Notes under the pieces: model-generated | The model's input: the letters and a program-made list of their open reading frames with translations, nothing else | Database searches by the model: none | What the model was told of the DNA's origin: nothing | Program-made: the position numbers and the translations under genes | Source: a virus | DNA length: 23,867 nucleotides | Reading direction: 5' to 3' (one strand) | Virus record (IMG/VR): IMGVR_UViG_3300010354_000657 | Span: 1 to 23,867 of that record | In this document: piece after piece, positions 1 to 23,064 of the stretch | Layout of the letters: the number at the start of each line of letters is the position of its first letter | Numbering within the stretch: the first letter of the stretch is position 1

Positions 1-3000
1 CACTTCAGCGATATAGTATGTTTGTCCTGCTGTGATATCAGTTGGAACATTTCCAGTAAATCTTACTGGCATTCCTACAGTAAAGCCAACTGTCGAACCT
101 GATGGGAAACTGTCTCCGGGTGATGAGGTGAACGATAATACGAGTTTATTGCCCACGATCTGAGTTATTCTTCTGCCGTCTGGACCCGGACCCGATGACC
201 ATTCTAACTGTCTATCATTGATTACAGATTGTATTGGGAATACAGTACCTTCTGCGCTAGATAAAATATTGTTGATATCTGGTTGTACGCTAGCGAGACT
301 TATGTTGCTGCTTGCTTCTTGTGTGTAGTAACCAACAAACTCACCTGAATAGAATGTGTTTGGTGTCCAATCTTTAACTTGTGTATCATAAGAAGTTCTA
401 TCAAACTTGATAGTGATGTTGTTTTCTCTGACTGGACTACTGTTTGGTATGGCTAACGCTCTTGCACCTAATTCAAACTTTTGTGTGCCTGTACCATGTG
501 ATAATAACTTCACACGATTTGTATCGTTCAATGCATCTGCGTCAGTACTGTATAGGGCTATGATCGTTGTAGGACTTGAATCCAGCACGTTGATATAGTA
601 CCACTTATTATCCTGTAATCCACCTACGTTTGTAGTACCCTTGACATACTTGACTAGATCACCTGTAGCGAGTTCTGGTGCATAGATTTCTATAGTATTA
701 TTGATGACGCTAACATTTGCTGTATCAAATTCATAGATATATGCAGAATCGATGACGATCTGAGGAGTTACCACATATCCACTACCTGGATCTGTGACGA
801 TGATTGATGAAATAGAATCACCTGACATCTGTGCTTCAAATGTGGCTTCAACTCTAGGCTCTGGATAACCTTCTGGTATCGTTGCTATAATTCTAGGTGG
901 GTCGCTATAACCCTTACCGCCATCAAGCAATATCACCGGAGGTAGATCCATGACGATCTGAGTGTTTGGTAGATGGTTAGCAGGTGTAGTACCTTGCAAT
1001 CCACGTGATAATCCGCCGATCACGTTGGTCGATCTATCTACGTAACTATAGCCAACCACTTCATAAACTGAACTGTCAGACAAGTCGTAAATCTTAAACG
1101 TTCCATTGATCGGAAAACCTTGAGCATTGTCAACAACGATAGTATCTGTCAACACAGTCATGTATGACTTAAGTTTGGCTATAGGATAATCTGTCTCTCC
1201 TACTAGTGTATCACCGAGATACTGACCTATACCTATACCGAAATTATTATACCACTCTTTATATTTTTCAGTTTGCCATATAGCAGAGTTTGCTGAATAT
1301 TCATAAGGAGTTACTGCTGTATCGTACACTAATTGTGGGCTGACGAATTTATCGATAGTAGTATTAAACTCAGAAGGTAAATCAAAGTCAGTTATCGTAC
1401 CGGGGTATACGTCTCCGCCAGTATACTCAAATAAGAATTCTTTCACGACAACGTGATATGGTTTAACTTCGTTGACATAACCACTTAAAAATTCTTGGTT
1501 GTCAGACAAATAATTCTGCAATGGTCTCAATTCACGGATCTTATGTGAAACATCTATCAATGATGTCTTGTTTAACCATGGCAGATAATTTTGATTTTCT
1601 ACTGTTTCTTCTTGGATGTATTCAAATAATAGTATCAAACTCTTGTTACGATGTATCAACAAATCATCAGTATAAATTTGTTCAGTCAATGCACGAATTA
1701 TCCAGCGTGTTTCTTCGCTTGGATATAAGTCATATGAATCTGTGTCGTAGAATGTACCTGCGAAACCATATCCAGCGGCTTCGTAATCATATAACTTGCT
1801 GCTGAATTCAATAGTACCATTCTCTAAACCTATGCGTGTCCATGTCGCTTGATCATTGATCAGACCATCATAACGATAAGTCTCAGCATTACCTGCTGTC
1901 AATGATGTTTGTCCTTCGCTGACAGTAACGATTGTACCTACTGGAACATTTAATGCTGATAGGTCTGCATAGATCGGTACCTGTAATGCTGCCTTAGTAT
2001 TGTTGTCGTATCCTAGTGCCCACCAATTTACACGCTCCCAATACATTGTAGTATCAAAATATTCTCCTGATTGTTGCAGGAATCCTGTAACTGCGTTTTC
2101 ACGTAATTCAACTATAGGATACAATGCCATAATTCCATTGGCATATTGTATATAATTCTTTAATGCTTCATATCTGTTATAGAAGAAACTCTGTCTTGGT
2201 CTTGCTAATACACCTGACTGAACAGCCTTAGGCAAGAATGGGTTAGGTACTACGGCACCCTGTTCATCTACACCTGACAATGAATCAAGCATTCTATCAT
2301 ATAATGATTCAGGTACTAGATAATCTCCGGTACCAGGTAATCCAGGCAAGAAGTCATCAGCATAATCTTGTCTGATCAAAGTAAATTCTTGGTGAGCAGG
2401 ATTATCTTCGATGCCGTTGCTGTAACCTATGTGCAATACTGTATCGTTAGCATTGATGAAAGGTTTGCAATTATAGATCGCTACTGCATCACTTGCTAAA
2501 GGCGCTAGATAACTGATCCCTGAAGTCTGTGGGTTTGCGATATAACTTGCGATGTTGATGTCGGCTATAGTTTTACCCCTTTCTCTGAAAATCAATCCAG
2601 AATCTCTGACCCAGAAATAGTATACAGGTTGTATTGTGTTGCTGCTGTTGAGTACTGTTTGTACCGTGTAATTCGTGATGTCTTTAGGTATTCCTGTACC
2701 TGTGTATGACGCAGGAGGGACTGTGCTTCCTATCCAAGAGTATACCGCAACGTCACTTCCAGGGAACAATTGTCCCCAGTATTTGGCATTATATGCATTA
2801 TCATTTTGATGATAATTCATATATCTGATGTTTGTAGTATCTAACCAAACTGTTCCGACCTGCGCTTCGCCCCAAACTATTCCACCAGTACCGCTGGTGC
2901 TGTTGTTGTAACTTGCAGGATCAGCGTTTGATATCACATCGATATTAGTGCGTACCGCACCTAATAACTTACCTTGCAACGGGTCGATATAATCAAGATT

Positions 3001-6000
3001 TACAAGTGTGTTATTTGTCTCTGCGCTAAACAATTGCAAGTTTTGTATTCTATCGATATCAACGATCTCGCTAGATTGTCTCAATACGTGCCAGTTATCT
3101 ACGCCAGTCTCATTTACATAGATTACTACCTGTCCATCAATGCTCTCAGGTAAAAAGTCTGGTGCACCTACAACGATCTTGTTATCAATCCAATCGATTG
3201 CGCTACCGTATCTTGGGCTTGCACCATTCACTAATGACTTAGAGTTGACGCTTTGAGCATATGTATATGCTCCTATATTATTCAACGATTCATTGTAATT
3301 TGATAGGTAATCAAATATGTATACTGCTCCTGCGTTTCTAAATGTGTCTATGAACTGTGTTGAATTGTTATCAAATACAGTATCATTATCTAGGTTCTCG
3401 TCATCGCTGAAATCAAATGTTGTTTGTGAGAATCTTGTTCCAACCGGGGCACTTATCGCTACTGAGTTATGCTCGTTGAACTTAACGACAGTACCGAATT
3501 GTGTGGCTCCCTGCTCATGTGGGCACAATATTACTTGAGTTGGACTATAGATTTGAATTCCTAATTCTGTCAATGTTACTGGATCGTTTACCGTCAATAC
3601 TAATTTAGATTCAGCAGTAGACAGGTCTTGATCTATCACAGATAATATTAATATTCCGTTGTTTTCGCTAGCGACAACATTCAGTATTTTTGCAGTATTG
3701 ATTGCTGTTGCTACAGCGACAGCATCACCGGCTGGTATGTTGACTAAGAAACCATTTATTAGTATCTGTCTTGTAGCAGTCGTGTCTACAGGCTGTGTAC
3801 CTGTTATCACACCGAATCTTGAACCTGCATCAGTAAATCTATATCCAGCACCTTCTTGATTATTAGAACTCAATGCGAAAGGCGCGCCGACAACGACTTC
3901 AGTACCATGAGTATTATTATCTACGCTAGTACCAAAGCCCACGCCTATTCTTGGAGTTTCTCCTGTCTCTAATATTTGTACGTTTACGAACTCGTTACCA
4001 CTTATGTTAAGTATATCACCGATAGTGAATACGCCGGTATAAGTCAATACGTTTCCTACAATGGTGTAATTAGAATCTGATACTGTTGTACCGTTCTTAG
4101 TTACAGAGAATGGTTGTCCTGCTACAGGATTCCATGCTAATGTGTATGATGGGGGTAGTACAGAGTTGTACTCAGTATTCATTAATATATTCTGAGTCAA
4201 TCTGTTATAGACATATGTTCGGCCCCAGTTCTCTAATACAGGGCTGATCAATTCGTAATCTTCGTTTGGCGCACCTACGAATACCGAAGTACCGTAATAG
4301 TTTGTAGAGATAGAATGTCCGAACTTGTCATCATCGACTGATCCTGAAGTCAATGTTGCTATGTATTCGTAATCACATTGTATTGCTTTACCTGTGCCGG
4401 TACCGGCGGTTGTGGCAACGAAATATATTCCTACTTCGTTAGTCACAGCACCGGATGATTTGAATTGAGGATTATTTCCTAGTTCTTTGATCTGATAAAC
4501 CATGCCAGGGATATATCCACCTGGTGCCTGTTCAAGATTGTTCTTACGATATACATGAACATTGTTGCGTGTATCATTGAAATCACTTATAAACAAGAAA
4601 TTAGTGTCACCGGACATTGCCATAGCCTGTCCGAAATTAGTAGATCCAGGCACAGCATTGATAGTCTGATAAGGTATGATGTCATCGCTGACAGCCGTAT
4701 CATTTACTACATACAATTCTACCTTAGGAGTACCAGTAGGTTGTGATATAGCAAATATGTTCTGTTCGTGTACGATAGTGGTACCGAAACTAGTAGAACC
4801 TGTCAAAGTCTGATCTTGTACGTATGCTTTTTCTAACTCGTCATATTGATATCGATAGACTTCGCCCTTGTCAGGATCACCGAACAAATAATCTGACAAT
4901 TTAGTATATGCTACGCTAGCACCAAATCTTATGCTGTTATCTTTGTCGAATGTTCTGTCATACTGGTAACTAATATCTTTGCGATACACAGCCCAATTAC
5001 CATCAGTATTTTCATCTACCCATACTGTATTCTTCACAAATTCGTTGGTCAGTAATGGTAGGTTTTGTATGTCGCTAGGTTGTTCTACGCGCTGTGAATT
5101 GAACTTCATAGCGATACCATTACCGGTCAATGATCTTGTCTGAGCAGGCAATGCTAGATTGATCAATACTTCTCTAGGACCTCTGACATTGGTCACGACA
5201 TAATATCCGTTTACCAATGCATCGAAATTAATTATAGCAAATATGTCATATTGGCTTAGGTTGTGATCTGCTGCGAATGTCACCGTGCAAGTATTATTCA
5301 AGTTGGCTCTGACTTGGACTACTTGTCCTGTACTATCAGGAGTCAATACTCTCCAACCTGCTCTGTAATTTGCCAACCAAACATAGTCACCCACATACAA
5401 ATTATCGATAGGTACTATGATACCGTTCTTGTTTACAGCAGAAGGTAAGTTGCTGTAATAGTATGCTGACATCTTGACATCATTGATGTTGACATAACCG
5501 GCATCGGGGAAATATGCGCTCTGTCTATCGTATGTTAATGGTAATACGTTAGGTGAACTGATAGGATAACCATAGTTGAACAATGAGTATATAGGTACTA
5601 ATTGTTGTGCATCATCTACATAGTTACCATTGCTCAATCCTATAATAGCAGGGTTTCCAGTCAATGACTTTTCGCTCAACTTGAATTCTATAAAGTTGTT
5701 ATTTAATAAACCACCGTATGAACCTTGCTGTATAGCCCAGTTTTCATAGATATCGTAGTCGATTCCGCCTTGTGGTAAGTTTGCGCCCTTAAATGCTTTC
5801 AATGCATTTAACGTACCTTTATCCTTGATCAAGTTTTTATAAACGTTTACCTGTGTGATATCTGTCAAGTCTGCGCTTACCATGTAATCTCTAGGTCTGA
5901 AACCAATCAAACTGAAACTTAACTGATCAGCATCGCTTTCTAAGTTGGCTTTATTTGAATTATAATACAATGCGGATTCATAACTGCGTGTGCTGCTATT

Positions 6001-9000
6001 AGGTAACAAACCTTTCTGTATCTCATCGTAGTCAGTTATCTTCCATTCGTTTTCGATGAATTTCGCATTTGGTTGTACAATACTTAGAGCGGCATAGTAC
6101 TTGTTTTTGTATGTGACTATGGCACCCTTAGTATATTTGACTCCCGGTTTCCACTCTTGGATATTATCTTGATTATAGATAAATCCGCTAGCGAACATAG
6201 TACCATCCCAATCGGCGCTCTTTGTTCCACGAACATAGATGCGATTCTGTTTCAATCCAGACGCTAAGTTGTAAACAACATCACCGAACAATGTAATGTT
6301 GTTGAACACGATACCATGTTCGATGTTGCTTAGATTAAATTGTCCATATGATAATACGTCACCTTCGTTCATAGGTTTGACGCTAAATTGTGTACCATCT
6401 CTGAATACACAAAGATCCTTTGTTTGTATAGGATATAGGTTATTATTTAAGATGAAATTATTGTTAGTATAAGTCAATGGTTGAACGATTAAACTTTCCT
6501 TATCGATAACAATATTATCAGCAGCAGGATTCAATGTTAGTACGCTGTTTGGTGACCATCCTGACTGAGCCCAGTACAAGAATTCTTGTATCATCACAGG
6601 CCAAGTCACAGTCAAACCTTGTAACATGTACTCAAACTTCATTCCTTGTGTTTCTAGATATCTTCCATAACTCATCAAGAACTGTGATACGTCTTGCTCA
6701 GTATAAAATACTGTTCCATATGGTACCACTAGTAATTTGTTAGAGTATGTGTCGGCTATAGAAACTGTAGCATCCTGAACTATGATCTCTGTCTTGCTAC
6801 CATTCATTTCTGGTTTCAATACTCGGAAATATGCTGAGGTTTGGTTGTTGCCGTATACTGCATATCCATCTATCGTTTTTTGAATCACTACGCCTGAGTA
6901 AACAATCTTATCGCTAGGTTGATTCTCATATAACAATACTTGATAACTCTCATCTGGAATCATCAATGATGGATTTGGTGTTGTAGGGCTACCCTTCTCG
7001 ACAAAGAAGCGTAGTAGATTCTTATCGCTAAATCCTGCTAGGCGATACACTAATCTTACATCTAGATTAGTCAATAACTTTTTGATCTTTTCGGTAGCAT
7101 CTACCCCTAATTGTTTTTGATAATCAACGATCCAGTTGATATATGATGTCTTGGCTGTGCCATTACCATATATCTCTATGTTACTAGGTACTAAGTGTGT
7201 TCTACCGTTAACTAAGAATTGGTCGAACTCAGGACTATACTTATAGTTGTCTAGATCGCTGCCTAGATTATAGAATAGTGCTGGCTTGATCAATGCCTGC
7301 AATCTCATTAAATCGAATGGGTACGTTGAACTCTTGCGATATGAATATTCAGCAGGAGCATCATCACCGACCATCCACTTTCTCTGGAAAGTCAAACTGT
7401 TGTAATTTGCTATGACAGCATCTAATGGTTGTCTTAATTCACCCGCTGAATCGACGGGCAATATGTTCATCAATCCGGGACGCTTGAATATGTCTATGTT
7501 TTCATTAGTGCCGAAATCATATCCATTTTCCATATCTTCCCATAGTATCAAGTTATCACTCGTATATGGGGCAGGGCCGTATCGTGTTTCCCACCAATCA
7601 GGTTTGTTGGCATAACCAATCATTTCCCATGGTGTAGTGTCTGGAGTGGATGTATCGTATAGATATGTGTATATACCTCTCCAGTTACCCTGCATCACAG
7701 CAGAGCCGTCTAACTTAAATCTTGAACCTCTATAATTATAAGTATACGGATCATTAGTCAAGAACAATTGAGTTTTGTAATCGATTCTATTTTGTCCAAC
7801 CCAATCTAAGAAGTTAGTGCTGTATACTTCAGTATATTGCTCATAAGATAATGGGGTCTGTCTGAAATATCCCGGTATGATGGCGGCGGGTACTATAGGT
7901 AGTACTCTGCTTAATTTTAAGTTGTTGTATACTCTAGTTTCATATTCAAGCAATACCTGATCTCTGAAATCTACAGGCATACCTAATTCTTCATTATACT
8001 CACCATACATCTTATTATATGAACCATCATGACCTTGAATGAAATACGTAGGCTCTACATAAGATTCGTCATATACAATGCTAGGTATATATGCAGGATA
8101 CAATCCTAATTTAGTCGGAGTATTAGGGACATATGAACCATAAGTCTTGTTATATTCTTTGATGATTACCCTATCACCATTCAACAAGTCTTTAGTAAGT
8201 ATGACGCTAGGGCTGTCTGTGCTTACTAGATAATCGATGCCTCTCAACAACTGCTTAATGACCTGCACACCCTGAACTTTTCTCTGTAAGTATACTAATA
8301 CACCATCATAGTTTGCTGTATTAAAATCATAAATCTTACTTAATGGGAATATAGATGTGTCTTGATCGTTCGCAAAACTATAAACGTTAGTGATGAATGC
8401 CGCCTTGCTTGGTAGCATATCTGACCAGAAGAAAGGTTGTTCTTGGCTCTTGACTGAGGTAATTTCATCTACTGCTAAGTCTAACAACGTTGAAGGATCA
8501 TATTTCTGATCATAAGCAATTCTATTGACTGTATCAATCAGTAATGTCTTGAACTTGATATACTCTCTGCTATTAAACAACAATGAGTCGAACAAGTTAG
8601 TGCTTGGGTCGCGCAAGAATGCACCGGGCAATACAAGGCTTGCGCTATTTTGTATGATACGATTACCCCATGGTACTAAGTTACCAAGATCACGATAGTT
8701 ATTTGGTCCGAACATCTGTCCGGATGTGTTAGGATTATTAGTAAATATGGTTTGATATTGACCACGTATATCACCGATGTCGATTGTTTCTGGATTTACG
8801 TTGAATGGGTTATTAGATAAGTTTACAGGTATAGAATAATAAGACTTATTGCTTACGCTATCGCTCAATATCAATACTTGTATAGGTGTATCAATATCTT
8901 CGTAAATCTTAACTGTGATTTTTGTCTCAGTAGTTGTGTTTATGACTGTATAATCGGTACCCTTTACTAAAATATTATTGTTGTTGAACACTTCTAGGCT

Positions 9001-12000
9001 TGGCCATACCGTCGATGCTTCACTTGCTTGAGGCACATCACAAGTGACTGTAAATTCTATGAATTCATCCGCAGATAATACTACCGGTATTTCATTAGCG
9101 TAGTATTCAAATTCAAATACCTGATATTGCTGGCTAGGTGCAGCGCAAGTCTGCCAACCGGTTAATCTCTTGTAGTCGATTCGATCTATATAATCGTAAA
9201 CAAAACCGTTGCTCACTTTAGAAGTGACTGCACCGCTATCGCTAACATAATTAAATTCATCTGTGTATAATGACACTTCAAAAGAAATATCACCTACGTT
9301 GTTTATCGAACTGAAACTGATAGGGAAGCCCAATACCGCATCGTTGGCCCCCGCTCCTGATTTATAATTGAATAATTTACAACCATTAAAAGTAGAAGAT
9401 GGATATACCGAAGAATCTCCGTAACTTATTCCATTTTCATCAAATAGATCGAATAACGGTGCTTCATTGACCGTCATCTTTTGTTGTGCTTGTATATAGA
9501 AAGATCCGTTAAAATAATAACTATGACCTGTATGGTTATAACCTTTCTGTACTGGGAACTGATCGTCTTCTAGTACCTGACTATCTTCTGCTTCTGTTAA
9601 TGTAATAACCGGATATAATTCAGAACCCGTATTGCTAAAGTTTACGACATAAATCTTGTTTCTGATACTTTCATTTACATCGCCGGCAAATACGATTCTG
9701 CTACCAGCAAATAGATTCAAGTCGGCATTATCCTCATCATTGATGGCAAAACTTGCACCGCTATTAGTTACTAACGGATTATATGTATGTCCGATAATAT
9801 CTTGCGGTAAAGTCCAATATACTTCAATGTTATAATTTGAACCTATCGTAGAAATGTCTAGAATTCTAGTGCCTGCAGGTAGTCTACTTTCTTGTCCTAA
9901 GATCATATCATTGATCCATTGACCTATCTGTAGATGACCTACTACTGCGTCTACCGGAACCTGTACAGTAGTGATACTCTTGTTCTTTAATACTGCACTA
10001 CCTTGATATACAGTACCTGTGCCTACTGATGTTATCACATCACCAAAATTAAACCCTGGAACATTTGCTGCGAAAGTTGCACCTACTGTAGGTGTACCTA
10101 CAAAACCTAAATCAGTCCATTGTGTAGTACCTAGACTTACGATTGTATATTCTAATCCTTGTCTTATTCTGTTGGATGATATAATGCCACTTTGTACGGG
10201 CTTGAATATAGTGGCTATCGCCGCACCAGTACCTCCTGCTGCACCCTCTGGTCCTGGATTGATACAAGTGAATACCGTACCTTTAGTATAAACTCCCGGG
10301 CCACCTATAGTAGTCCATGGAGTAGTACCTAACTGTGTAATGATGTATTGCACTCCAACTTCAAAGTCGCCGCTGTTGACAACAGTTGCGCCCATATCAG
10401 TCCAAGTATAAATGTTTGTTTCGGGATTAACGCCGTTATCTAAATCTTCAATCTGATACCATTGACCTGCCAATACATTAGTCATATTGACTGTATAATT
10501 GGCTAGTATCGTTCCTTTGTATTCTGTATAAGTCTGTACATCAGGATAGTATGATTGCTGACTCTCAACGAAATCAAATGCGTTTGACGTTCTAAAATCT
10601 ATGAAATCAACGTCATTCTTAGCAATAGTTCCTGAATTGAATAACTTCAAATTAGGATAGAATTGTAAGATAGGACGCTTTGCCTTATTATCAGCCGTAG
10701 CGTATGTGGTCAATATCTCTGCATTATTGTTGTATGCGGCTGTATTTTCTATGACCTGTATATGGAACCAGCGATTGCTACGTGACCATGCATTACGATT
10801 AATACTGTTTCTTGCTATAGTAATATAATCTTGCTCTGTTGGAATGTTCAATCCAGCATCATAAGGACCTATATCATATGGCAACGCATCGTATGGTGAT
10901 GTAGTACTTGTAGTGAAGGGTTCTGGAGTTACTAGCAAATCAGTACTGATCAACTCAATACCCTTTTCAGTACCTACGCCTTCTACATAATACTGTCCAG
11001 TCAAATAACTACGGGGGAATACGTCCCCATCGAACTCAACTTTGAGTCCGTTAGTGAAAATCACACCATTAGTTGATGTATAATTTTTCTTACCTATGAT
11101 GTCAAGATTGACATCGATAGTATTTGTCTCGTTACTTTCGATTAATTTAATGACACCGAAACTATTTGGATTAGTTCCATCTTGATAATATAAAGTATCT
11201 AATGGTGCGCTGATGTATGGTAGTTGTATGATGGCTCCAGTCGCTGCACTTTTAATGAAGTGTAAGCCAACAAACTTTTCACCATATTGCGGTGTTATTT
11301 TTTGCTCTAGCGGTATAGGTATAGATGGCACCAGTCTCAATACTGGGTCATCGTTTTCGCCTAAGAATTGAATAGTATAGAAATAATTGTTGACTTCGGT
11401 GTAGAGTCCTTCTTCGTATAATCCTGAGTTATAACGGGCTCTCATCAATCCTGTACCTGATGTAGTGATGAAAGTAGGTCCGTTTAATGTTAAACTTACT
11501 TTTATAGTGTTAGTAGAAGGATCGATTGCAGTAACATAATATATTACAGGGTTATATAAACCAACAAATCCATTGCCTACTGTAGGTACAGAGGCGCATA
11601 CGAATATCTTTCCAACTTGAATATCAAAAACGCTCATGTTTGTCAATGATACATTTTGATTAATGTTCACCGTGTAAGTTGGCTTGCCGTTATTTGCGCT
11701 TGCTATCATGTCGTAGCCAGTTATGATCGTGCCATTGGCGACACCGGCTCCAACTAGTGTTTGACCTATACTAAAACCACCAGATATAACATTGTCGATT
11801 ATTAATTGATTACCATCTATCTCGGCATTGATGACAGCATTGCTTGTCACACCTGCTGCTACCCAATCAGTATCACCTAGATCGCTGATGTAATAAGTTT
11901 TTCCAACAACCATATCAGTTGCAGGAGTTACGCTAGCAGGATCTGTTTGGTAAGATTGTAAACCACCTATGCTCGGGCCTAATAGGATAAGAGTTCCACC

Positions 12001-13038
12001 TATAGTCAATGGTGCGGTCGTGTTTACTTTGATAGTACCGTCAGCAAATGTTTGAGTGATGTTTACCTGTCTAGGTCCTACTAATGTTCCTAGATTAGTA
12101 TCATAATTTGATTCATCATAGAAAACCGAACTATAAGCGATCTCGTTTTCTACACCGGTATCATAGAACATCACAGTTCTACCGTTCAATGCGGTAACAC
12201 CGTCAATACTACCGATATCCGCTAATCTAGCGCCGTTTACTTGGCTATAAGGTAGTGTAGAAACAACTGCTACCTGATTGTTTCCTGGATAGTTGAATTC
12301 ATTCTGTGCATCTTTTTCTGGTACATTGAATGTCACAACCCCTACTTCAGCGCCGTTATTGGTCACACCATAGATGTCTCTAGTGTAAAGATTGTTTTGT
12401 ATTGGGCTAAAACCAGTAACACCGGGCTCTCCCTGTATCCAGAACTTTGTGTTTTGATCTACGATGAAATTATATGTGCCTCCGCGTAACAACGTCAACG
12501 TAGGATTGATAGATCCGGCGCCGGCACCAACTGTTCTTATGTTATAACCGCCTGATGTTGCACGAACAATATAATCGTTCGTATTGAACACAGTAGATGC
12601 GGCTACTGTGACCGGCGGAGGGCCTTCAGGCAACCAATAATATTGGTTATAGTTGATGATCGGATCTAGGCTACAGAAACTATCGAAACTATAGATGTCG
12701 CTATTGAAAAGATTATTGTTATTATTCGTGACACTATTTTGCAATTTTAGACTATCGATTATACCAGGATAACTGATGAAGTCTTTAGCAGTAGTCTCAT
12801 TGTCTTTTAAAAATACAACGCCCGGCTCTAATTGATAATCTGTTCTTACCTTAGTTGGCTCTGTGACATAGTAATCTCTAGCATCGATGCCATATCCTAC
12901 TTTGCTGCCTACATAACCTTGTATGATTTTAGTAGAAGGAGGATTTACAAGTTGATCAAGAGTGGCACCGAGGAATTGACTATTTGTTGTAGTCTGAAAG
13001 ATTGATGGTAAGAATTCAAGTGTGCGTATTCTAGTCAT
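1..13038 (-). CDS. Giant phage baseplate/tail structural protein (3' end beyond window)
   Basis: The frame is open from an ATG at 13036-13038 to base 1, giving 4346 codons with no stop seen; the C-terminus lies outside the window. It starts one base after the gp6 stop (TAA-C-ATG) with only a weak GAAG ribosome site at 13049-13052, so translation probably depends on gp6. Read by eye, the N-terminus (MTRIRTLEFLPSIFQTTTNS), the middle (PTKLGLYPAYIPS, QGHDGS) and the C-terminal part (YWERVNWW, NEVKPYH) resemble very large structural proteins of marine T4-like phages. Residues about 2700-3312 hold seven FG-GAP-type motifs; four LGTT-type modules lie near residues 387, 903, 969 and 2853. The protein is rich in Asn, Tyr, Thr and Ser, has few Cys and shows no signal peptide, as expected of a beta-rich virion protein. 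Position after gp6 suggests a role like T4 gp7 (peripheral wedge), but I could not establish homology to gp7. The structural role is fairly sure; the exact name is not. Confidence 0.93.
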   Translation of the reverse strand, partial: MTRIRTLEFLPSIFQTTTNSQFLGATLDQLVNPPSTKIIQGYVGSKVGYGIDARDYYVTEPTKVRTDYQLEPGVVFLKDNETTAKDFISYPGIIDSLKLQNSVTNNNNNLFNSDIYSFDSFCSLDPIINYNQYYWLPEGPPPVTVAASTVFNTNDYIVRATSGGYNIRTVGAGAGSINPTLTLLRGGTYNFIVDQNTKFWIQGEPGVTGFSPIQNNLYTRDIYGVTNNGAEVGVVTFNVPEKDAQNEFNYPGNNQVAVVSTLPYSQVNGARLADIGSIDGVTALNGRTVMFYDTGVENEIAYSSVFYDESNYDTNLGTLVGPRQVNITQTFADGTIKVNTTAPLTIGGTLILLGPSIGGLQSYQTDPASVTPATDMVVGKTYYISDLGDTDWVAAGVTSNAVINAEIDGNQLIIDNVISGGFSIGQTLVGAGVANGTIITGYDMIASANNGKPTYTVNINQNVSLTNMSVFDIQVGKIFVCASVPTVGNGFVGLYNPVIYYVTAIDPSTNTIKVSLTLNGPTFITTSGTGLMRARYNSGLYEEGLYTEVNNYFYTIQFLGENDDPVLRLVPSIPIPLEQKITPQYGEKFVGLHFIKSAATGAIIQLPYISAPLDTLYYQDGTNPNSFGVIKLIESNETNTIDVNLDIIGKKNYTSTNGVIFTNGLKVEFDGDVFPRSYLTGQYYVEGVGTEKGIELISTDLLVTPEPFTTSTTSPYDALPYDIGPYDAGLNIPTEQDYITIARNSINRNAWSRSNRWFHIQVIENTAAYNNNAEILTTYATADNKAKRPILQFYPNLKLFNSGTIAKNDVDFIDFRTSNAFDFVESQQSYYPDVQTYTEYKGTILANYTVNMTNVLAGQWYQIEDLDNGVNPETNIYTWTDMGATVVNSGDFEVGVQYIITQLGTTPWTTIGGPGVYTKGTVFTCINPGPEGAAGGTGAAIATIFKPVQSGIISSNRIRQGLEYTIVSLGTTQWTDLGFVGTPTVGATFAANVPGFNFGDVITSVGTGTVYQGSAVLKNKSITTVQVPVDAVVGHLQIGQWINDMILGQESRLPAGTRILDISTIGSNYNIEVYWTLPQDIIGHTYNPLVTNSGASFAINDEDNADLNLFAGSRIVFAGDVNESIRNKIYVVNFSNTGSELYPVITLTEAEDSQVLEDDQFPVQKGYNHTGHSYYFNGSFYIQAQQKMTVNEAPLFDLFDENGISYGDSSVYPSSTFNGCKLFNYKSGAGANDAVLGFPISFSSINNVGDISFEVSLYTDEFNYVSDSGAVTSKVSNGFVYDYIDRIDYKRLTGWQTCAAPSQQYQVFEFEYYANEIPVVLSADEFIEFTVTCDVPQASEASTVWPSLEVFNNNNILVKGTDYTVINTTTETKITVKIYEDIDTPIQVLILSDSVSNKSYYSIPVNLSNNPFNVNPETIDIGDIRGQYQTIFTNNPNTSGQMFGPNNYRDLGNLVPWGNRIIQNSASLVLPGAFLRDPSTNLFDSLLFNSREYIKFKTLLIDTVNRIAYDQKYDPSTLLDLAVDEITSVKSQEQPFFWSDMLPSKAAFITNVYSFANDQDTSIFPLSKIYDFNTANYDGVLVYLQRKVQGVQVIKQLLRGIDYLVSTDSPSVILTKDLLNGDRVIIKEYNKTYGSYVPNTPTKLGLYPAYIPSIVYDESYVEPTYFIQGHDGSYNKMYGEYNEELGMPVDFRDQVLLEYETRVYNNLKLSRVLPIVPAAIIPGYFRQTPLSYEQYTEVYSTNFLDWVGQNRIDYKTQLFLTNDPYTYNYRGSRFKLDGSAVMQGNWRGIYTYLYDTSTPDTTPWEMIGYANKPDWWETRYGPAPYTSDNLILWEDMENGYDFGTNENIDIFKRPGLMNILPVDSAGELRQPLDAVIANYNSLTFQRKWMVGDDAPAEYSYRKSSTYPFDLMRLQALIKPALFYNLGSDLDNYKYSPEFDQFLVNGRTHLVPSNIEIYGNGTAKTSYINWIVDYQKQLGVDATEKIKKLLTNLDVRLVYRLAGFSDKNLLRFFVEKGSPTTPNPSLMIPDESYQVLLYENQPSDKIVYSGVVIQKTIDGYAVYGNNQTSAYFRVLKPEMNGSKTEIIVQDATVSIADTYSNKLLVVPYGTVFYTEQDVSQFLMSYGRYLETQGMKFEYMLQGLTVTWPVMIQEFLYWAQSGWSPNSVLTLNPAADNIVIDKESLIVQPLTYTNNNFILNNNLYPIQTKDLCVFRDGTQFSVKPMNEGDVLSYGQFNLSNIEHGIVFNNITLFGDVVYNLASGLKQNRIYVRGTKSADWDGTMFASGFIYNQDNIQEWKPGVKYTKGAIVTYKNKYYAALSIVQPNAKFIENEWKITDYDEIQKGLLPNSSTRSYESALYYNSNKANLESDADQLSFSLIGFRPRDYMVSADLTDITQVNVYKNLIKDKGTLNALKAFKGANLPQGGIDYDIYENWAIQQGSYGGLLNNNFIEFKLSEKSLTGNPAIIGLSNGNYVDDAQQLVPIYSLFNYGYPISSPNVLPLTYDRQSAYFPDAGYVNINDVKMSAYYYSNLPSAVNKNGIIVPIDNLYVGDYVWLANYRAGWRVLTPDSTGQVVQVRANLNNTCTVTFAADHNLSQYDIFAIINFDALVNGYYVVTNVRGPREVLINLALPAQTRSLTGNGIAMKFNSQRVEQPSDIQNLPLLTNEFVKNTVWVDENTDGNWAVYRKDISYQYDRTFDKDNSIRFGASVAYTKLSDYLFGDPDKGEVYRYQYDELEKAYVQDQTLTGSTSFGTTIVHEQNIFAISQPTGTPKVELYVVNDTAVSDDIIPYQTINAVPGSTNFGQAMAMSGDTNFLFISDFNDTRNNVHVYRKNNLEQAPGGYIPGMVYQIKELGNNPQFKSSGAVTNEVGIYFVATTAGTGTGKAIQCDYEYIATLTSGSVDDDKFGHSISTNYYGTSVFVGAPNEDYELISPVLENWGRTYVYNRLTQNILMNTEYNSVLPPSYTLAWNPVAGQPFSVTKNGTTVSDSNYTIVGNVLTYTGVFTIGDILNISGNEFVNVQILETGETPRIGVGFGTSVDNNTHGTEVVVGAPFALSSNNQEGAGYRFTDAGSRFGVITGTQPVDTTATRQILINGFLVNIPAGDAVAVATAINTAKILNVVASENNGILILSVIDQDLSTAESKLVLTVNDPVTLTELGIQIYSPTQVILCPHEQGATQFGTVVKFNEHNSVAISAPVGTRFSQTTFDFSDDENLDNDTVFDNNSTQFIDTFRNAGAVYIFDYLSNYNESLNNIGAYTYAQSVNSKSLVNGASPRYGSAIDWIDNKIVVGAPDFLPESIDGQVVIYVNETGVDNWHVLRQSSEIVDIDRIQNLQLFSAETNNTLVNLDYIDPLQGKLLGAVRTNIDVISNADPASYNNSTSGTGGIVWGEAQVGTVWLDTTNIRYMNYHQNDNAYNAKYWGQLFPGSDVAVYSWIGSTVPPASYTGTGIPKDITNYTVQTVLNSSNTIQPVYYFWVRDSGLIFRERGKTIADINIASYIANPQTSGISYLAPLASDAVAIYNCKPFINANDTVLHIGYSNGIEDNPAHQEFTLIRQDYADDFLPGLPGTGDYLVPESLYDRMLDSLSGVDEQGAVVPNPFLPKAVQSGVLARPRQSFFYNRYEALKNYIQYANGIMALYPIVELRENAVTGFLQQSGEYFDTTMYWERVNWWALGYDNNTKAALQVPIYADLSALNVPVGTIVTVSEGQTSLTAGNAETYRYDGLINDQATWTRIGLENGTIEFSSKLYDYEAAGYGFAGTFYDTDSYDLYPSEETRWIIRALTEQIYTDDLLIHRNKSLILLFEYIQEETVENQNYLPWLNKTSLIDVSHKIRELRPLQNYLSDNQEFLSGYVNEVKPYHVVVKEFLFEYTGGDVYPGTITDFDLPSEFNTTIDKFVSPQLVYDTAVTPYEYSANSAIWQTEKYKEWYNNFGIGIGQYLGDTLVGETDYPIAKLKSYMTVLTDTIVVDNAQGFPINGTFKIYDLSDSSVYEVVGYSYVDRSTNVIGGLSRGLQGTTPANHLPNTQIVMDLPPVILLDGGKGYSDPPRIIATIPEGYPEPRVEATFEAQMSGDSISSIIVTDPGSGYVVTPQIVIDSAYIYEFDTANVSVINNTIEIYAPELATGDLVKYVKGTTNVGGLQDNKWYYINVLDSSPTTIIALYSTDADALNDTNRVKLLSHGTGTQKFELGARALAIPNSSPVRENNITIKFDRTSYDTQVKDWTPNTFYSGEFVGYYTQEASSNISLASVQPDINNILSSAEGTVFPIQSVINDRQLEWSSGPGPDGRRITQIVGNKLVLSFTSSPGDSFPSGSTVGFTVGMPVRFTGNVPTDITAGQTYYIAEV
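475..663 (-). repeat. YYI-type module (residues 4126-4188)
   Basis: Contains GDLVKYVKGT, then DNKWYYINVLDS, then a Ser-Thr-Asp-Ala-Asp-Ala stretch and a closing SHGTGTQKFELG. The pattern (opening V-x-Y/F strand, W/T-YYI centre, GTGTQ close) recurs in phage structural proteins. A second copy starts at bases 1-75 (GMPVRFTGN ... GQTYYIAEV) and is cut by the window edge, so the protein ends in a repeat array of unknown length. Confidence 0.5.
760..960 (-). repeat. GxGY repeat pair (residues about 4027-4093)
   Basis: Two related motifs occur: DGGKGYSDPPRIIATIP and, after an SISSIIVTDPGSGY link, VVTPQIVIDSA. The G-x-GY-x-x-x-P pattern is common in phage tail and fibre proteins as short stacked beta repeats. 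It is followed at once by the YYI-type modules. Confidence 0.55.
1430..2050 (-). other. Conserved C-terminal-side block (residues 3664-3870)
   Basis: Begins near YWERVNWWALGYD and continues through a DGLINDQATWTRIGLENGTI stretch, RWIIRALTEQIYTDDLL and LPWLNKTSLIDVSHKIRELR to GYVNEVKPYHVVVKEF. I recall the YWE-x-V-x-W and EVKPY landmarks from large wedge/structural proteins of T4-like marine phages. It includes a likely helical segment (RALTEQIYTDDLLIHRNKS). The function is structural by inference. Confidence 0.5.
3103..4941 (-). other. Seven FG-GAP-type motifs: candidate beta-propeller (residues 2700-3312)
   Basis: Seven F/Y-G boxes start at residues 2705 (RFGASVAY), 2751 (SFGTTIV), 2802 (NFGQAMAMSGD), 2906 (KFGHSIS), 3035 (GFGTSVD), 3181 (QFGTVVKF) and 3277 (RYGSAIDW). 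Most are followed by a GAP-like box: SVFVGAPNED, EVVVGAPFAL, SVAISAPVG, KIVVGAPDFL; blades 2 and 3 have degenerate versions (IFAISQP, FLFISDF). Each ends in a V-x-x-Y strand (EVYRY, VELYV, VHVYRK, TYVYNRL, AVYIFDY, VVIYVNE). This is the pattern of integrin-alpha N-terminal propellers, where seven repeats close one ring. Spacing is 46-51 residues for the first three and 96-146 later, because extra domains are inserted. Classic DxDxDG calcium loops are not obvious. The role is probably binding to a receptor or a neighbouring virion protein, by inference. Confidence 0.7.
4378..4506 (-). repeat. LGTT-like module, copy D, inserted in the propeller (residues 2845-2887)
   Basis: Reads GMVYQIKELGNNPQFKSSG, then GIYFVATTAGTGTGKAIQ. 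It matches the outline of copies A-C (Y-x-I-x-x-LG, G-x-x-F, Gly/Thr close) but has lost the Trp. It lies between FG boxes 3 and 4, so it would decorate a propeller loop. Confidence 0.5.
7860..8118 (-). other. Conserved central block of the giant protein (residues 1641-1727)
   Basis: Contains PTKLGLYPAYIPS, then YVEPTYFIQGHDGSYNKMYG, then a charged stretch ending LLEYETRVYNN. I recognise this arrangement from large structural proteins of marine T4-like phages, where the QGHDGS stretch is a near-invariant landmark. No enzymatic motif is evident. A further recognisable block (RKWMVGDD...YRKSSTYPFDLMRLQ, residues about 1887-1927, bases about 7260-7380) follows. Confidence 0.55.
10003..10365 (-). 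repeat. Tandem LGTT-type modules, copies B and C (residues 892-1012)
   Basis: Two adjacent copies 66 residues apart. Copy B contains YIITQLGTTPWTTIG, then TKGTVFTC and a GAAGGTGAA end. Copy C contains YTIVSLGTTQWTDLG, then TVGATFAA and an SVGTGTVYQ end. The common order is Y-x-I-x-x-LGTT-x-W-T-x-x-G, then G-(T/A)-x-F, then a Gly/Thr-rich close. The protein similarity is clear while the DNA has diverged, which points to old duplication or repeated shuffling. Confidence 0.75.
11833..11913 (-). repeat. LGTT-type module, copy A (giant protein residues 376-402)
   Basis: Reads MVVGKTYYISDLGDTDWVAA followed by GVTSNAV. It shares the pattern (V/G)-x-x-Y-x-I-x-x-L-G-x-T-x-W-x-x-x-G with copies B and C. 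This short beta module recurs in phage virion proteins, but its function is unknown to me. Confidence 0.6.
12589..13038 (-). other. Conserved N-terminal domain of the giant protein
   Basis: Residues 1-150. Key stretches are ATLDQLVNPPSTKIIQGYVG, DYQLEPGVVFL, SYPGIIDSL and NYNQYYWLPEGPPPV. From memory, this block begins many giant structural proteins in marine T4-like phages, which supports the ATG at 13038 as the true start. A run of five Asn separates two parts of the block. By position it may be the part that docks on gp6/gp53 wedges; this is inference. Confidence 0.6.
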
Positions 13039-13039
13039 G

Positions 13040-16000
13040 TTATGCCGACTTCAATTGATCAGGTGTTAGTGCTGCGATAACCAATACGTTATCTGCTGTG
13101 GCTGCGTTTACAAATATTTCATAAGGTCTGCACTTAATTTCATATAATGTTCCAAACGGTTCACTTGGATCGTCTGGCACTAATACCGCTGAACTAATAA
13201 AACTACCTAAACGGCTATGCAGATATGCGCTCAATTCACTAAAGAAGAATGTCTCACCAAAATTCCAATTATTGATATCGAAATAATCATTCATCGCTGT
13301 TAATACAGCACTTCTGATTTCGCTATCGCTGGCAGTTGTGTCGCTAGTTTTAATCACTTTGATCGTCCCACGTAATGCTGGTGCAGCCTTATCTCCAAAC
13401 AATGGTTTGAAGATCACACTATTTAATACCACAGAATCGCTCAACATTTTGTAATCGTTTACCTGACCATATTCTGAACTCAATTCATTAATAGTAGGTC
13501 TGTTTGGTTCAGGTATAGTATTAGTCGTATCCTGTATATAATTCTGATATGCTGTGTAGTAAGCCTGTGTAACAACATACAAATCGATAATGTTAGTTGT
13601 AGCAGGATCGATACGTGTTGTGTTATTGCTGTTATGACGATACTGATAACTTATAGCCTGGCGTCCATATTTCATTGAATAATTATTTTGCTCTGTAAGA
13701 ATATAATTCTTAGTAGTGGTGCTAGTATCTTGTATTGTCTTGTAGAAAGTATTTTCATTATACGCATAGAATAATTGACCTACTGGATATGAATACTTTA
13801 CTGGTTCAATAGCACTCTTTGTTGCATATTGATAAAGTATGTCGCCTGCAGGGACAAGTTGTTGCCTAGTTAAATTGATAGCATCTTGTACTGTTTCAAA
13901 GAACACATAACGACCTATGTTTGTGCCTCCTGGTACGACACCGGTCAACTCACCAAAGAAATCTGGATTGATTATCAATAGTCTATCATTGACATCTGAA
14001 CTTGCGACTTCAACTTCAAAGTCATTCACATAACCATCACTTTGTACAGTTTGTCCTATGATATTGATCTTTGTGTCTGATCCTAATGCATTGCTTGAGT
14101 TAGGCTCACTATTGATTCCTAAAACATTGATGAAGTCTTGTAATATCTTACCACTAAATGGATCATATACCAATTCATTTACTGCATATGTGAATCTGTT
14201 TTCTGCAACGCTACCGAAATAATAACGCAATGATCTGAACTGTACGTTATATTTGTTGTCTGCTATATTGTCAAATTTAACGAACCAATTTGGTTCAGTA
14301 AATGGTCTGATAGACCAGCGTTCTTGATTCACTAACAAACTATTGTTGAATGTCAATGTGAAATCTTCTTGTAATTCCATCTTTATGATGGCTTCTTGTA
14401 TGATCGCCGTGCTTAATGAATTATCAAACACAGGTATGATCGTAGTGATTATAGCACCTTGTGGCACGAATCCATTGATAGTTACAGGACCATTGCCATT
14501 GCTGAAATTACCTTGACCTGTGTTGCTGCCGTCTCCCGCTACATTCATTATAGTAGTCCATAAGAATGTATTTTTATTAGCGGGAGGGATGCCCGGTTTC
14601 AATCTATAATCGTCATCAAAATAATAACCTGCAGGAGGGATGAATTTAATCATAGCACCCCTGGTTGCATACTTCATGTTAGTAGTGCTGTAAGTTCCAA
14701 TCATGATTGGAGTCTCAATCGTGTTATCTAACTGATAGAAATAACCGTTGATGCTGTTACCATTAACATTACTTGTGTTCCAGTATACAGTATTTGGGCC
14801 TATAACATCGAGGTTGAAACGTTTGTACCATGATTGGCTAGCATCTGCTGTAGCATCGACATAGTATTGTTCTGCTCTGTTTAATGCTAATACACCGGCG
14901 AGTCTATCAGTAAAGAAACTGATGATGCTACTGGTACTAGAAATAGTCAAATCTAATGTACCGTTAGTATAATCTTGCCATAATCCACCGTCACTACCTA
15001 TGCTATTAGTGCTGCTGTATTTGCCTGTTGGGTCGAGCAAATCTAAATTCTTGCTAACTCCGATTGAACTACGGTTGATAGCCTTTGATTTGATGATTGA
15101 ACTGTATAATGTATATGGGAAGTTATTATAGTCTTCGCCATTTACCATACGATTCTGTGTATAGTAACGTGTCGGTGCGCGTTGCTTGATGCTTGGTAGG
15201 CTCTCACGGGCTTGAGCATTGCTGACTGGTTGTGTTAGTTCTAATGATACAGTTAGTGTCTCACTTCTACCCTCTCTACTGATATAAGTGAACGCTACGG
15301 ATATACCATTCATCTCAGCAGGATCGATTGTATATGTCAAACCATTGCTGGCGCGAACATATGCTCTGAAGTTTCCAACTGGAACGTTGCTGAATACACC
15401 ATCACCGAAATTATAAGTGACTTGATCGTTAAATCTTGAACTTACGCTGAAGATATTCTTTTTGCTAGATTCTGTTTGCAGATATGCGTCTGCATAAACG
15501 TTATCTACTTTTCTCCATAATAAACGTGAATCATTGTTTACGTTTAACTGATATAACCAAGTGTCAGTATTATTGATACCTTGAATATTGATATCTACAG
15601 TTTGGTTACTAATTTGTTGCTGTAAAGTGAAGTCATAGTTATTCAATATGCCTTGCTTGAAATAGAAGAAATAACCTGTATTCGCGCTTGCAAATCCAAG
15701 TCTATCATTCTTATATAGCATATTAAACTTGCCGGTAGGGGCCGGTGGCAACTCGTAAAGATAATCTTCATCTACGCTTGTCACGCTGACTAATTCGAAA
15801 TTAGTGTTCGTACCGTTGATCGTGCTTGTGAATGGTACGATCGGTAACGTGTTCTGTGGTATGCTTAGGCTATATTCTGCTACTGTTACGCCTAATAGTT
15901 CAGAGATGTTACCTGGTTTGCCGACCTTTTGACTGCTGATCAATGCGGCATTGATGATAGTGTTGAATTGTTCGAACCAACTTGGGTTAGCAGGATCATT

Positions 16001-16432
16001 CCATAATATAGGAAGATTGCTTAGGTTGACTCCGTTCAAGTCTGTTATGTTTTGACTTGTCTGAATACCTACAACTTTCAATGTTCCCTCTGCGCAGAGA
16101 TTGCGCTTAGGTGTATAACTAACAAGATTGGCTAACTTAATTACGCTATCACGGCGTTCAGCAGTATCAATGAAGTTTTCTCTTGCGTTCAAGTCATTTC
16201 TAAATGCAAGACCCTGACCCATGAACGCCATGACATCAAGCAATGCGATAAATTCGCTAGATTCGATGTAGTCGTTGAACGTTTCTGGATAGTAGATGCG
16301 CAGGTAATCTATGAAACTCTTGCGTAGTGTTTCATAATCGTAACTACGAAAATCTGCCTCACGGAATGTCTGATAGATTGTTTTCCAATCATTCACTCCG
16401 AACAGCGCCGCTTGTCTAGAACTTTTAGCCAT
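13040..16432 (-). CDS. 6: Baseplate wedge protein gp6-like (P2 gpJ-type)
   Basis: gp6 forms the ring that joins baseplate wedges around the hub and transmits the contraction signal. The N-terminus (YQTFREADFRSYDYETLRKS, then YIESSEFIALLDVMAFMGQG, then LNARENFIDTAERRDSVIKL and SYTPKRN, residues about 20-112) is the characteristic gp6/J opening. The C-terminal domain, residues about 994-1120, has a helix-strand pattern typical of gp6/J (SEIRSAVLTAMNDYFDINNW, then GETFFFSELSAYLHSRLG). At 1130 residues it is much longer than T4 gp6 (about 660); the extra length is in a Tyr/Asn/Ser-rich middle. The ATG at 16430-16432 has a weak AGAG ribosome site. The gene lies 47 nt after gp25 and 1 nt before the giant gene, the expected order for contractile systems. 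Confidence 0.93.
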   Translation of the reverse strand: MAKSSRQAALFGVNDWKTIYQTFREADFRSYDYETLRKSFIDYLRIYYPETFNDYIESSEFIALLDVMAFMGQGLAFRNDLNARENFIDTAERRDSVIKLANLVSYTPKRNLCAEGTLKVVGIQTSQNITDLNGVNLSNLPILWNDPANPSWFEQFNTIINAALISSQKVGKPGNISELLGVTVAEYSLSIPQNTLPIVPFTSTINGTNTNFELVSVTSVDEDYLYELPPAPTGKFNMLYKNDRLGFASANTGYFFYFKQGILNNYDFTLQQQISNQTVDINIQGINNTDTWLYQLNVNNDSRLLWRKVDNVYADAYLQTESSKKNIFSVSSRFNDQVTYNFGDGVFSNVPVGNFRAYVRASNGLTYTIDPAEMNGISVAFTYISREGRSETLTVSLELTQPVSNAQARESLPSIKQRAPTRYYTQNRMVNGEDYNNFPYTLYSSIIKSKAINRSSIGVSKNLDLLDPTGKYSSTNSIGSDGGLWQDYTNGTLDLTISSTSSIISFFTDRLAGVLALNRAEQYYVDATADASQSWYKRFNLDVIGPNTVYWNTSNVNGNSINGYFYQLDNTIETPIMIGTYSTTNMKYATRGAMIKFIPPAGYYFDDDYRLKPGIPPANKNTFLWTTIMNVAGDGSNTGQGNFSNGNGPVTINGFVPQGAIITTIIPVFDNSLSTAIIQEAIIKMELQEDFTLTFNNSLLVNQERWSIRPFTEPNWFVKFDNIADNKYNVQFRSLRYYFGSVAENRFTYAVNELVYDPFSGKILQDFINVLGINSEPNSSNALGSDTKINIIGQTVQSDGYVNDFEVEVASSDVNDRLLIINPDFFGELTGVVPGGTNIGRYVFFETVQDAINLTRQQLVPAGDILYQYATKSAIEPVKYSYPVGQLFYAYNENTFYKTIQDTSTTTKNYILTEQNNYSMKYGRQAISYQYRHNSNNTTRIDPATTNIIDLYVVTQAYYTAYQNYIQDTTNTIPEPNRPTINELSSEYGQVNDYKMLSDSVVLNSVIFKPLFGDKAAPALRGTIKVIKTSDTTASDSEIRSAVLTAMNDYFDINNWNFGETFFFSELSAYLHSRLGSFISSAVLVPDDPSEPFGTLYEIKCRPYEIFVNAATADNVLVIAALTPDQLKSA

Positions 16433-16479: not shown

Positions 16480-16932
16480 TTAACTTCGTGCTTGGGCTGT
16501 GTTAGTCGTGCTGTCGAAAAACACGCTGAGGATCATAGATTGATTGAATGGTAATACAGACGCTTGGACTTCCATCAATATGCCATTTTCTTTAGGATAT
16601 GCTTTAACAAACTCTATATTGAGTCTAGGATCCAATGCTCCGACTCTTCTTATCTCTGTTTCTAGCAAGAATTGCATATCTTGTGTGTTAGGTTCAAACA
16701 CAAAGTCCCATAATGTCGTACCATAGGCAGGTTGACCGACTTTTTCACCTTGTCTTATATTAAGCGCATTTATAAAGTCATTGATGACCAATTGCTGGTC
16801 TGTTATCTTAAACTTTCTACCTACTGATATGGGCTCTAATAAAGATCCAAATCCATTACCAGATCCAGCCACAGCATTCCTAGTAGGCGGTTTGCAAGAT
16901 TGTTGAGTGCTGAATCCTATATATTGTGGCAT
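16480..16932 (-). CDS. 25: Baseplate wedge protein gp25-like (lysozyme-like fold, sheath initiator)
   Basis: gp25 proteins (P2 gpW, T6SS TssE) sit at the inner wedge, bind gp6 and start sheath polymerisation. The 150-residue length fits the family (T4 gp25 is 132). Diagnostic stretches are DQQLVINDFINALNIRQGEK, GQPAYGTTLWDFVFEP (the Y-G-T-x-L-W/D-F core) and FLLETEIRRVGALDPRLNIE, followed by the C-terminal strand pair. Residues 1-40 are a Gly/Ser-rich extension typical of phage versions. The ATG at 16930-16932 is 17 nt after the spike stop codon, with an AAAGAA purine stretch just upstream. The family name 'lysozyme' is historical; no catalytic role is implied. Confidence 0.95.
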   Translation of the reverse strand: MPQYIGFSTQQSCKPPTRNAVAGSGNGFGSLLEPISVGRKFKITDQQLVINDFINALNIRQGEKVGQPAYGTTLWDFVFEPNTQDMQFLLETEIRRVGALDPRLNIEFVKAYPKENGILMEVQASVLPFNQSMILSVFFDSTTNTAQARS

Positions 16933-22753: not shown

Positions 22754-23064
22754 ATACCTAGCGTCTGTTTGAGCGTATCTAATTTAGGAATATAAAATTC
22801 AACACCAGTAACGAAATCAAAATACGGATCGAAGCCCAATCGATTAGGATTTCTCGCAGCGAATACCCACCACAATCTACTATCACCGTATAAGTCGTTT
22901 GCTAATAGATCAGGTCTATATTGATAAACAGCAGGCAACTGATATAACACATCGCTAGGTTGACTTGGGATAGGTCTGTTAACCATGAAGTCGAGGAACT
23001 TCTGATTGAACACTCCAGTATCTTTATACGGGCTGGTGCGAGGATATAACATATTGTTTGCCAT
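22750..23064 (-). CDS. 53: Baseplate wedge protein gp53-like
   Basis: gp53 clamps neighbouring gp6-gp7-gp25 wedges into a ring. The 104-residue protein carries the typical core PAVYQYRPDLLANDLYGDSR, then LWWVFAARNPNRLGFDPYFD and FVTGVEFYIPKLDTLKQTLG, a LysM-like pattern ending in the 'I-P' strand. T4 gp53 is 196 residues, so this is close to the minimal core with only a short N-terminal arm (TGVFNQKFLDFM). The ATG at 23062-23064 shares its first A with the TAA of the upstream gene, and its own TGA overlaps the hub ATG. Tight coupling on both sides suggests matched production. Confidence 0.88.
   Translation of the reverse strand: MANNMLYPRTSPYKDTGVFNQKFLDFMVNRPIPSQPSDVLYQLPAVYQYRPDLLANDLYGDSRLWWVFAARNPNRLGFDPYFDFVTGVEFYIPKLDTLKQTLGI

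Follow-up and report, generated by a model that had tools for sequence, protein, structure and literature searches.

Most of the FG-GAP rings described so far belong to integrins, to surface proteins of bacteria and to a small number of eukaryotic viruses. For one of the latter, MntV1, a role of the FG-GAP proteins in host attachment has been proposed, and the same work suggests that MntV1 is the first virus confirmed to carry such repeats (PMC11467894). In phage tails, gp131C of PhiKZ is a seven-bladed propeller at the edge of the baseplate, the receptor-binding protein of phi11 has a five-bladed propeller with a cavity that could hold GlcNAc (PMC4901313), and the nozzle propeller of SU10 is seven-bladed, with Ig-like domains between the blades and a loop that docks a fibre (PMC9509320).

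Here we discuss a window (the whole stretch of DNA that was analysed, 23,867 bases of virus record IMGVR_UViG_3300010354_000657) whose source is an uncultured T4-like jumbo phage. In our view it is probable that an FG-GAP_2 propeller lies in a hairpin of a giant virion protein whose gene belongs to the baseplate cluster, and that it does so as an accessory, displayed domain. FG-GAP rings themselves are known; what is new is the setting, namely a giant virion protein at the gp7 position, together with the breadth of occurrence, the exact graft into a hairpin and the natural absence of the ring in some relatives. A literature search, outside which most subscription journals lay, found no work joining FG-GAP with a phage baseplate or a jumbo phage.

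The giant protein and its gene neighbourhood

According to Pfam and PHROG profiles, the minus strand of the window encodes, in this order, a gp53-like baseplate wedge protein (22750..23064; PF11246, 27.7 bits, cut-off 21), an 'unknown virion' protein (20369-22753), a gp5-like baseplate hub protein (16950..20369; phrog_13211, E 1e-35), a gp25-like baseplate wedge protein (16480..16932; PF04965, 29.2 bits, cut-off 27.2), a gp6-like baseplate wedge protein (13040..16432; phrog_10646, E 1e-252, and phrog_219) and the giant protein itself (1..13038), whose open reading frame covers at least 4,346 amino acids and has its 3' end beyond the window. The giant protein matches phrog_10938, a 'virion structural protein' family, with an E-value of 2e-279, and in its homologues the open frame runs to 5,700-6,753 codons. 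Outside the ring, it is common to the isolated jumbo phages Phosso, Atu_ph07, SCTP-2, Vibrio 2.275, PA5oct-like phages, RaK2, XaC1 and CBB, with which it shares a conserved core upstream of the ring (residues 1381-2475; 5614..8898, minus strand) and a conserved segment downstream of it, which includes a DPxxG anchor (1378..3084, minus strand). In those isolates whose neighbourhood was read, gp6-type genes precede the giant gene, and gp25/gp6-type genes are found ahead of it in Phosso, phi30-2, XaC1 and phAPEC6 as well.

The homologue in coliphage phAPEC6, gp245, comprises 3,323 amino acids and is without the ring. Mass spectrometry of virions has detected it through 17 unique peptides at 382 kDa; it adjoins the baseplate wedge protein gp244 and is labelled hypothetical in that study (PMC7247149). 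On the basis of gene order and of the mass spectrometry of this ring-less homologue, we take the giant protein to belong to the virion, as part of the baseplate region. The initial annotation had called it a baseplate protein outright, and it is on these two lines of evidence, rather than on structure, that the term rests.

Could the giant protein be the orthologue of T4 gp7, grown by insertion of modules, such that the ring would sit on a gp7-type wedge arm? The gene order gp53-...-gp5-gp25-gp6-giant is that of T4, in which gp7 comes after gp6, and this argues for such an origin. Against it, sequence searches of the PDB match the giant protein to no solved gp7, and the AF2 model of the upstream core, built on an 18-row alignment, reaches a pLDDT of 47, which is too poor for a fold comparison with gp7; a PDB search with this model returned nothing at E 0.001. 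We regard the gp7 origin as an evenly balanced question. It concerns the host protein and fits alongside the explanation that we favour for the ring.

Several further features of these proteins deserve mention. The weak PDB matches of the poor core model (pLDDT 47) include chitin-binding folds, and residues 2295-2317 of the giant protein give a below-threshold match to the chitin-binding family CBM_5_12 (20.7 bits, cut-off 26.2). A small module, GxTYxIxxxGTTDFTxIGA..N.VG..F.ATGxGxGTG, is repeated in the giant protein (minus strand) at residues ~370-402, 858-985, 954-1017 and 2838-2890, and is found many times in other large open reading frames of related phages; it has the look of a mini-domain that moves between phage structural proteins. 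The giant proteins of G003:C1:34946-55204 (L116/L117) and G005 are very large among phage structural proteins and have a repeat-rich C-terminal part. Finally, the gp5-like hub protein (16950-20369, minus strand) contains a long Ala/Ser/Gly-rich region of low complexity and a C-terminal segment that resembles a coiled coil.

Sequence type and predicted fold of the ring

The initial annotation had placed seven FG boxes within window positions 3103-4941 (minus strand), that is, residues 2700-3312 of the open reading frame 1..13038. The ring domain is slightly wider, extending over about residues 2688-3315 (3094..4977, minus strand), as a predicted FG-GAP_2-type seven-bladed beta-propeller whose assignment comes from AF2, Foldseek against the PDB and Pfam, and whose boundary comes from the empty sites in the relatives L159 and L177. 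All seven boxes are present, on the minus strand, where they had been claimed: F2705 (blade 1, 4867..4926), F2751 (blade 2, 4729..4788), F2802 (blade 3, 4576..4635), F2906 (blade 4, 4264..4323), F3035 (blade 5, 3877..3936), F3181 (blade 6, 3439..3498) and Y3277 (blade 7, 3151..3210). The description of several of them as textbook VGAP boxes is apt for 2906, 3035 and 3277, where VGAP is indeed found; 3181 and 2751 read ISAP and ISQP, and the boxes at 2705 (FGDP) and 2802 (ISDF) are weaker. The FG/GAP periodicity, whose absence in homologues had been named beforehand as a refutation, is conserved across an alignment of 69 homologues: at each of the seven boxes, the G of the aromatic-G pair is kept in 63-69 of the 69 rows and the aromatic residue in 59-69. 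What is more, a strict FG...GAP pattern occurs five times in the 4,346 amino acids, always within the ring, whereas 1,000 shuffles give 0.10 occurrences on average and never more than 2. The boxes are spaced by 46, 51, 104, 129, 146 and 96 residues, the long spacings being due to inserted modules. In the compact relative L158, seven boxes fit into about 385 amino acids at more even spacings (46, 45, 52, 57, 56, 86).

A direct Pfam scan of the whole giant protein gives no FG-GAP match, and the family becomes visible only with the isolated stretch and its homologues. Namely, the isolated ring scores 20.2-22.3 bits (E 7e-4 at 20.2) against FG-GAP_2 (PF14312), just below the curated cut-off of 23. 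This family is matched in 18 of 21 homologues from uncultured viruses, the window included (best E 3.6e-11); seven of ten homologues scanned singly (L048, L061, L064, L098, L017, L029 and L033) exceed its cut-off, and the compact ring of L158 reaches 60.7 bits. The search against FG-GAP (PF01839) that had been proposed turned out negative, with 13.1 bits against a cut-off of 22.1 and no match in the window at E 0.001, so that PF14312 is the closer family. The integrin calcium motif, in the strict form DxD/NxD/NGxxD, is found in none of the 69 aligned homologues, and neither are RGD motifs. Judged by its sequence, then, the ring is of the FG-GAP_2 type (PF14312) and not of the calcium-binding type PF01839 of integrins.

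A predicted toroid had been set beforehand as a test of the propeller claim, and a propeller is indeed what AlphaFold2 predicts from the 69-row alignment, with a pLDDT of 87, a pTM of 0.88 and 28 strands. In our own grouping, which follows strand order, the 28 modelled strands would form seven four-stranded blades. In a Foldseek search of the PDB, integrin alpha chains occupy each of the ranks 1-9 (E 3e-11 to 3e-9), with alpha-5, alpha-V and alpha-IIb as the best, and the target-normalised TM of the model to these nine chains is 0.42-0.57. For the WD40 protein CIAO1, a closed seven-blade ring, the corresponding values are 0.74-0.76. PhiKZ gp131C (4GBF) is absent among the top 50 PDB matches listed. 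FG-GAP proteins of large eukaryotic DNA viruses (for example MntV1 and relatives of Mimivirus) are also strong Foldseek matches. PDB profile searches by sequence likewise lead to beta-propeller proteins, integrin alpha-4 and alpha-M among them. Strand order, the Foldseek matches and the position of the ends together make the predicted closure into a seven-bladed toroid well supported. The integrin-alpha-like propeller of the initial annotation thus stands as concerns the predicted seven-bladed fold, but not as concerns the sequence, which is of the FG-GAP_2 type and carries the calcium motif in none of the 69 homologues.

In beta-propellers, where strands A to D are named from the centre, the C-D loops of consecutive blades sit on one face. 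Judging from the strand positions of the AF2 model, the ring carries inserts in the C-D loops of three such blades. Insert 1 (blade 3; 4372..4542, minus strand) contains a mini-module of the form GxxYxIxxxG..ATxGxGTG; in homologues, 5 to 119 amino acids lie between the bounding strands, with clusters near 7, 57, 90 and 113, and the insert is missing from about 20 of the 69. Insert 2 (blade 4; 4015..4182, minus strand) lies in a segment whose lengths cluster near 72, 157 and 212 amino acids. The segment of insert 3 (blade 5; 3550..3828, minus strand) is nearly constant at 98-99 amino acids, and in one homologue it gives a Flagellin_IN match. The C-D loops are the least conserved class of loops (1.91 bits, as compared to 2.28-2.38 for the others) and, given their common face, the variable modules would crowd one side of the ring. 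On the opposite face, as suggested by strand order and Foldseek matches, would lie the acidic B-C loop of blade 6, FDFSDDENLDNDTVFDNN (3328..3414, minus strand), which is conserved in the close clade and has low model confidence. The segment of this loop (FDFxDDENxDNDTIFDNN) is 37-39 amino acids long across the 69 rows, and its conservation is 2.92 bits, as compared to 1.9-2.4 for loop classes overall; in the wider clade, its motif, searched as a regular expression, occurs in only one of 33 rings, that of L158. As a separate observation, about 370 amino acids within insert 1, the blade-3 small module, of L015:3631-7278 match propeller families of the PQQ_2/SBBP type, and by our reading of the L015 sequence, on which the assignment of these Pfam matches depends, this appears to be a propeller nested in a propeller.

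Insertion site, absence and spread

The ring is bordered by the two strands of a hairpin of the host protein, WAVYRK on the N-terminal side (residues 2682-2687; 4978..4995, minus strand) and WHVLRQ on the C-terminal side (residues 3316-3321; 3076..3093, minus strand). The boundary was placed from L158, L159 and L177, the alignment of the empty junction in distant phages being too poor. In L159 and L177, which are without the ring, ...GWAVYTYN joins GSTWTRTRQQSPSVDI... directly, in other words GWAVYTYN runs into GS.W.RTRQQSPSVDI, while their close relative L158 reads ...GWGVYSFN-[ring]-TSWTLTRQQQPAVDI..., with the same flanks. From this exact empty site we conclude that the ring replaces the turn of a beta-hairpin, a place that suits its insertion because the ends of a propeller are adjacent, and the exactness of the natural absence means that the ring is optional. 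The two ring-less sequences come from different metagenomes, their frames run uninterrupted over the site, and no FG-GAP_2 was found on their contigs of 26-30 kb, although a separate ring may lie elsewhere in those genomes. By flank alignment, RaK2, XaC1, Vibrio 2.275 and phi30-2 are also without the ring.

Among 82 members, the gap at the ring site measures 143-258 amino acids where it is empty and ~600-1,580 where the ring is present, or else it holds 440 to 3,000 amino acids of other sequence. Pfam assigns no family to the sequence that SCTP-2 and Phosso carry at this site; in the giant protein of Salicola phage SCTP-2 (L112), the ~440 amino acids concerned (residues ~1935-2377) look LamG/concanavalin-like by eye only. 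It is possible, if somewhat doubtful, that jumbo phages keep this hairpin as a permanent exchange site on the tail tip, where lineages would acquire, lose or replace an adhesion head (an FG-GAP ring, an unrelated sequence or nothing), with modules plugged stepwise into one face of the ring. If true, a two-level modular system, consisting of the hairpin swap and the ring modules, would tune host contact outside the tail fibres.

When the presence of the ring is mapped on a quick, midpoint-rooted tree built from 78 rows of the downstream segment, two changes suffice, each of them required by starred branches, as compared to a mean of 18 upon shuffling. The ring-less pair L159/L177 is nested among ring-bearing rows, and its absence is for this reason best read as loss. 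Sequence change has been quicker in the ring than in the core upstream of it: mean pairwise identity over 18 loci is 0.51 for the ring segment and 0.64 for the core, the ring being lower in 153 of 153 pairs.

As for its spread, relatives of the ring segment are encoded in 464 viral-contig stretches, 80 of which were retrieved. Whereas MntV1 has been suggested as the first confirmed virus of this kind, the FG-GAP ring of the giant virion protein is encoded in hundreds of phage contig stretches. A tblastn search of isolated phages with the window ring gave no match, and in bacterial genome contigs no relative of the ring was confirmed; these searches consequently pointed to no donor and to no carrier in culture.

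Proposed role and comparison with known systems

In the explanation that we favour, residues ~2688-3315 would form a closed seven-bladed FG-GAP_2 beta-propeller, that is, the head of an integrin alpha chain without its calcium sites, seated in the turn of the hairpin WAVYRK / WHVLRQ of the giant virion protein. Its ends being adjacent, such a ring could be gained or lost at the hairpin with the host protein undisturbed. It would most likely be displayed outside the tail tip as an accessory domain, a rigid ring whose C-D loops of blades 3-5 bear variable modules on one face, with the conserved acidic loop on the other, and it would serve adhesion to the cell surface or decoration, not assembly of the baseplate. 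We take the ring to be an exposed accessory domain because it is optional, faster evolving and modular; as for exposure together with a role in adhesion or decoration, we would give it an even chance. Precedents for such a role are the propellers of PhiKZ gp131C, at the baseplate edge, and of the phi11 receptor-binding protein (PMC4901313). No ligand, lectin site or enzyme site was identified on the ring. Seen this way, the ring would be a clean example of how a module of the adhesion type is fitted onto a tail machine, at a fixed hairpin and with modules coming and going.

In the main rival reading, a further protein of the virion, such as a tail fibre, a whisker or a chaperone, would dock on the ring through the acidic loop of blade 6. 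Indeed, the near-constant length and the high conservation of this loop could reflect a fixed virion partner, which favours docking, its low model confidence is what one would see in a loop that becomes ordered on a partner, and a precedent exists in SU10, whose nozzle propeller docks the short tail fibre by a blade-1 loop (PMC9509320). That said, L159 and L177 are without both ring and loop and have their two flanks intact, the isolated relatives RaK2 and phi30-2 assemble without the ring, and any partner would have to be clade-specific, as the loop motif is found in just the one wider-clade ring. We therefore consider docking rather unlikely. The stronger form of this idea, which makes the ring a structural hub that the virion cannot do without, was downgraded for the same precise absence with both flanks kept, and the assembly hub that the initial annotation had offered as an option is disfavoured, as an essential one, with it.

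Unlikelier still, in our estimate, is that the ring binds or degrades glycans as a domain of the lectin or lyase type, in the manner of the phi11 receptor-binding propeller. The receptor-binding protein of phi11, together with PhiKZ gp131C, offers a precedent (PMC4901313), the weak PDB profile matches include gluconolactonase and paraoxonase propellers, and there is the sub-threshold CBM_5_12 match elsewhere in the giant protein; yet a catalytic signature was not found, the enzyme matches span only one or a few blades, and Foldseek favours integrins. Finally, the FG repeats could be genuine and yet build an open or irregular array of beta-repeats, but this is very improbable: although the inserts disrupt the FG spacing and the TM lies at just 0.42-0.57 for the nine best integrin chains, the pTM of 0.88, the similarity to closed CIAO1, the ends that meet at the hairpin in empty-site relatives and the compactness of L158 all speak against it.

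Returning to the accessory propeller that we favour, how does it compare with described systems? The giant proteins of RaK2, PA5oct, Phosso, Atu_ph07 and SCTP-2 (phrog_10938) are of the same family before and after the ring, but no FG-GAP ring is present at the site in those isolates that were checked; Phosso and Atu_ph07 have FG-GAP_2 repeats in other genes instead. In Sinorhizobium phage Phosso (L204, PV764938.1 48338-68978; PV764938.1 92124-94532), there are 42 FG-GAP_2 matches, most of them in two hypothetical proteins of more than 3,000 amino acids and some in two of ~390, and it is possible that this culturable phage makes multi-propeller proteins. In Atu_ph07, a 'hemagglutinin protein' (L203, MF403008.1 243018-244199) is FG-GAP_2 by Pfam and its fold resembles the ring, so that the label looks misleading.

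Other likenesses are found among further tail proteins and viruses. The propellers of PhiKZ gp131C and phi11 are, like the window ring, beta-propellers in phage tail devices, but they belong to other proteins, and the account of them, from whose description the likeness is drawn, names no FG-GAP repeats (PMC4901313). Those of the SU10 and T7 nozzles also lie within a tail protein, but that protein is the nozzle of a short-tailed phage, where the propeller is part of the conduit and not an optional insertion. The MntV1-type FG-GAP rings are likewise encoded by viruses, but the viruses and the proteins are different. With the integrin alpha head (PF01839) the window ring shares the seven-bladed fold, as predicted, but it has no DxDxDGxxD in 69 homologues, remains below the PF01839 cut-off and is only ~10% identical. 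There is also likeness with the FG-GAP_2 family (PF14312), whose repeat of ~50 amino acids, FG...(V/I)(G/S)A(P) without a calcium loop, is also that of the window ring; what differs is the setting of the latter within a giant virion protein, at a hairpin, and its modules in the C-D loops of three blades in succession.
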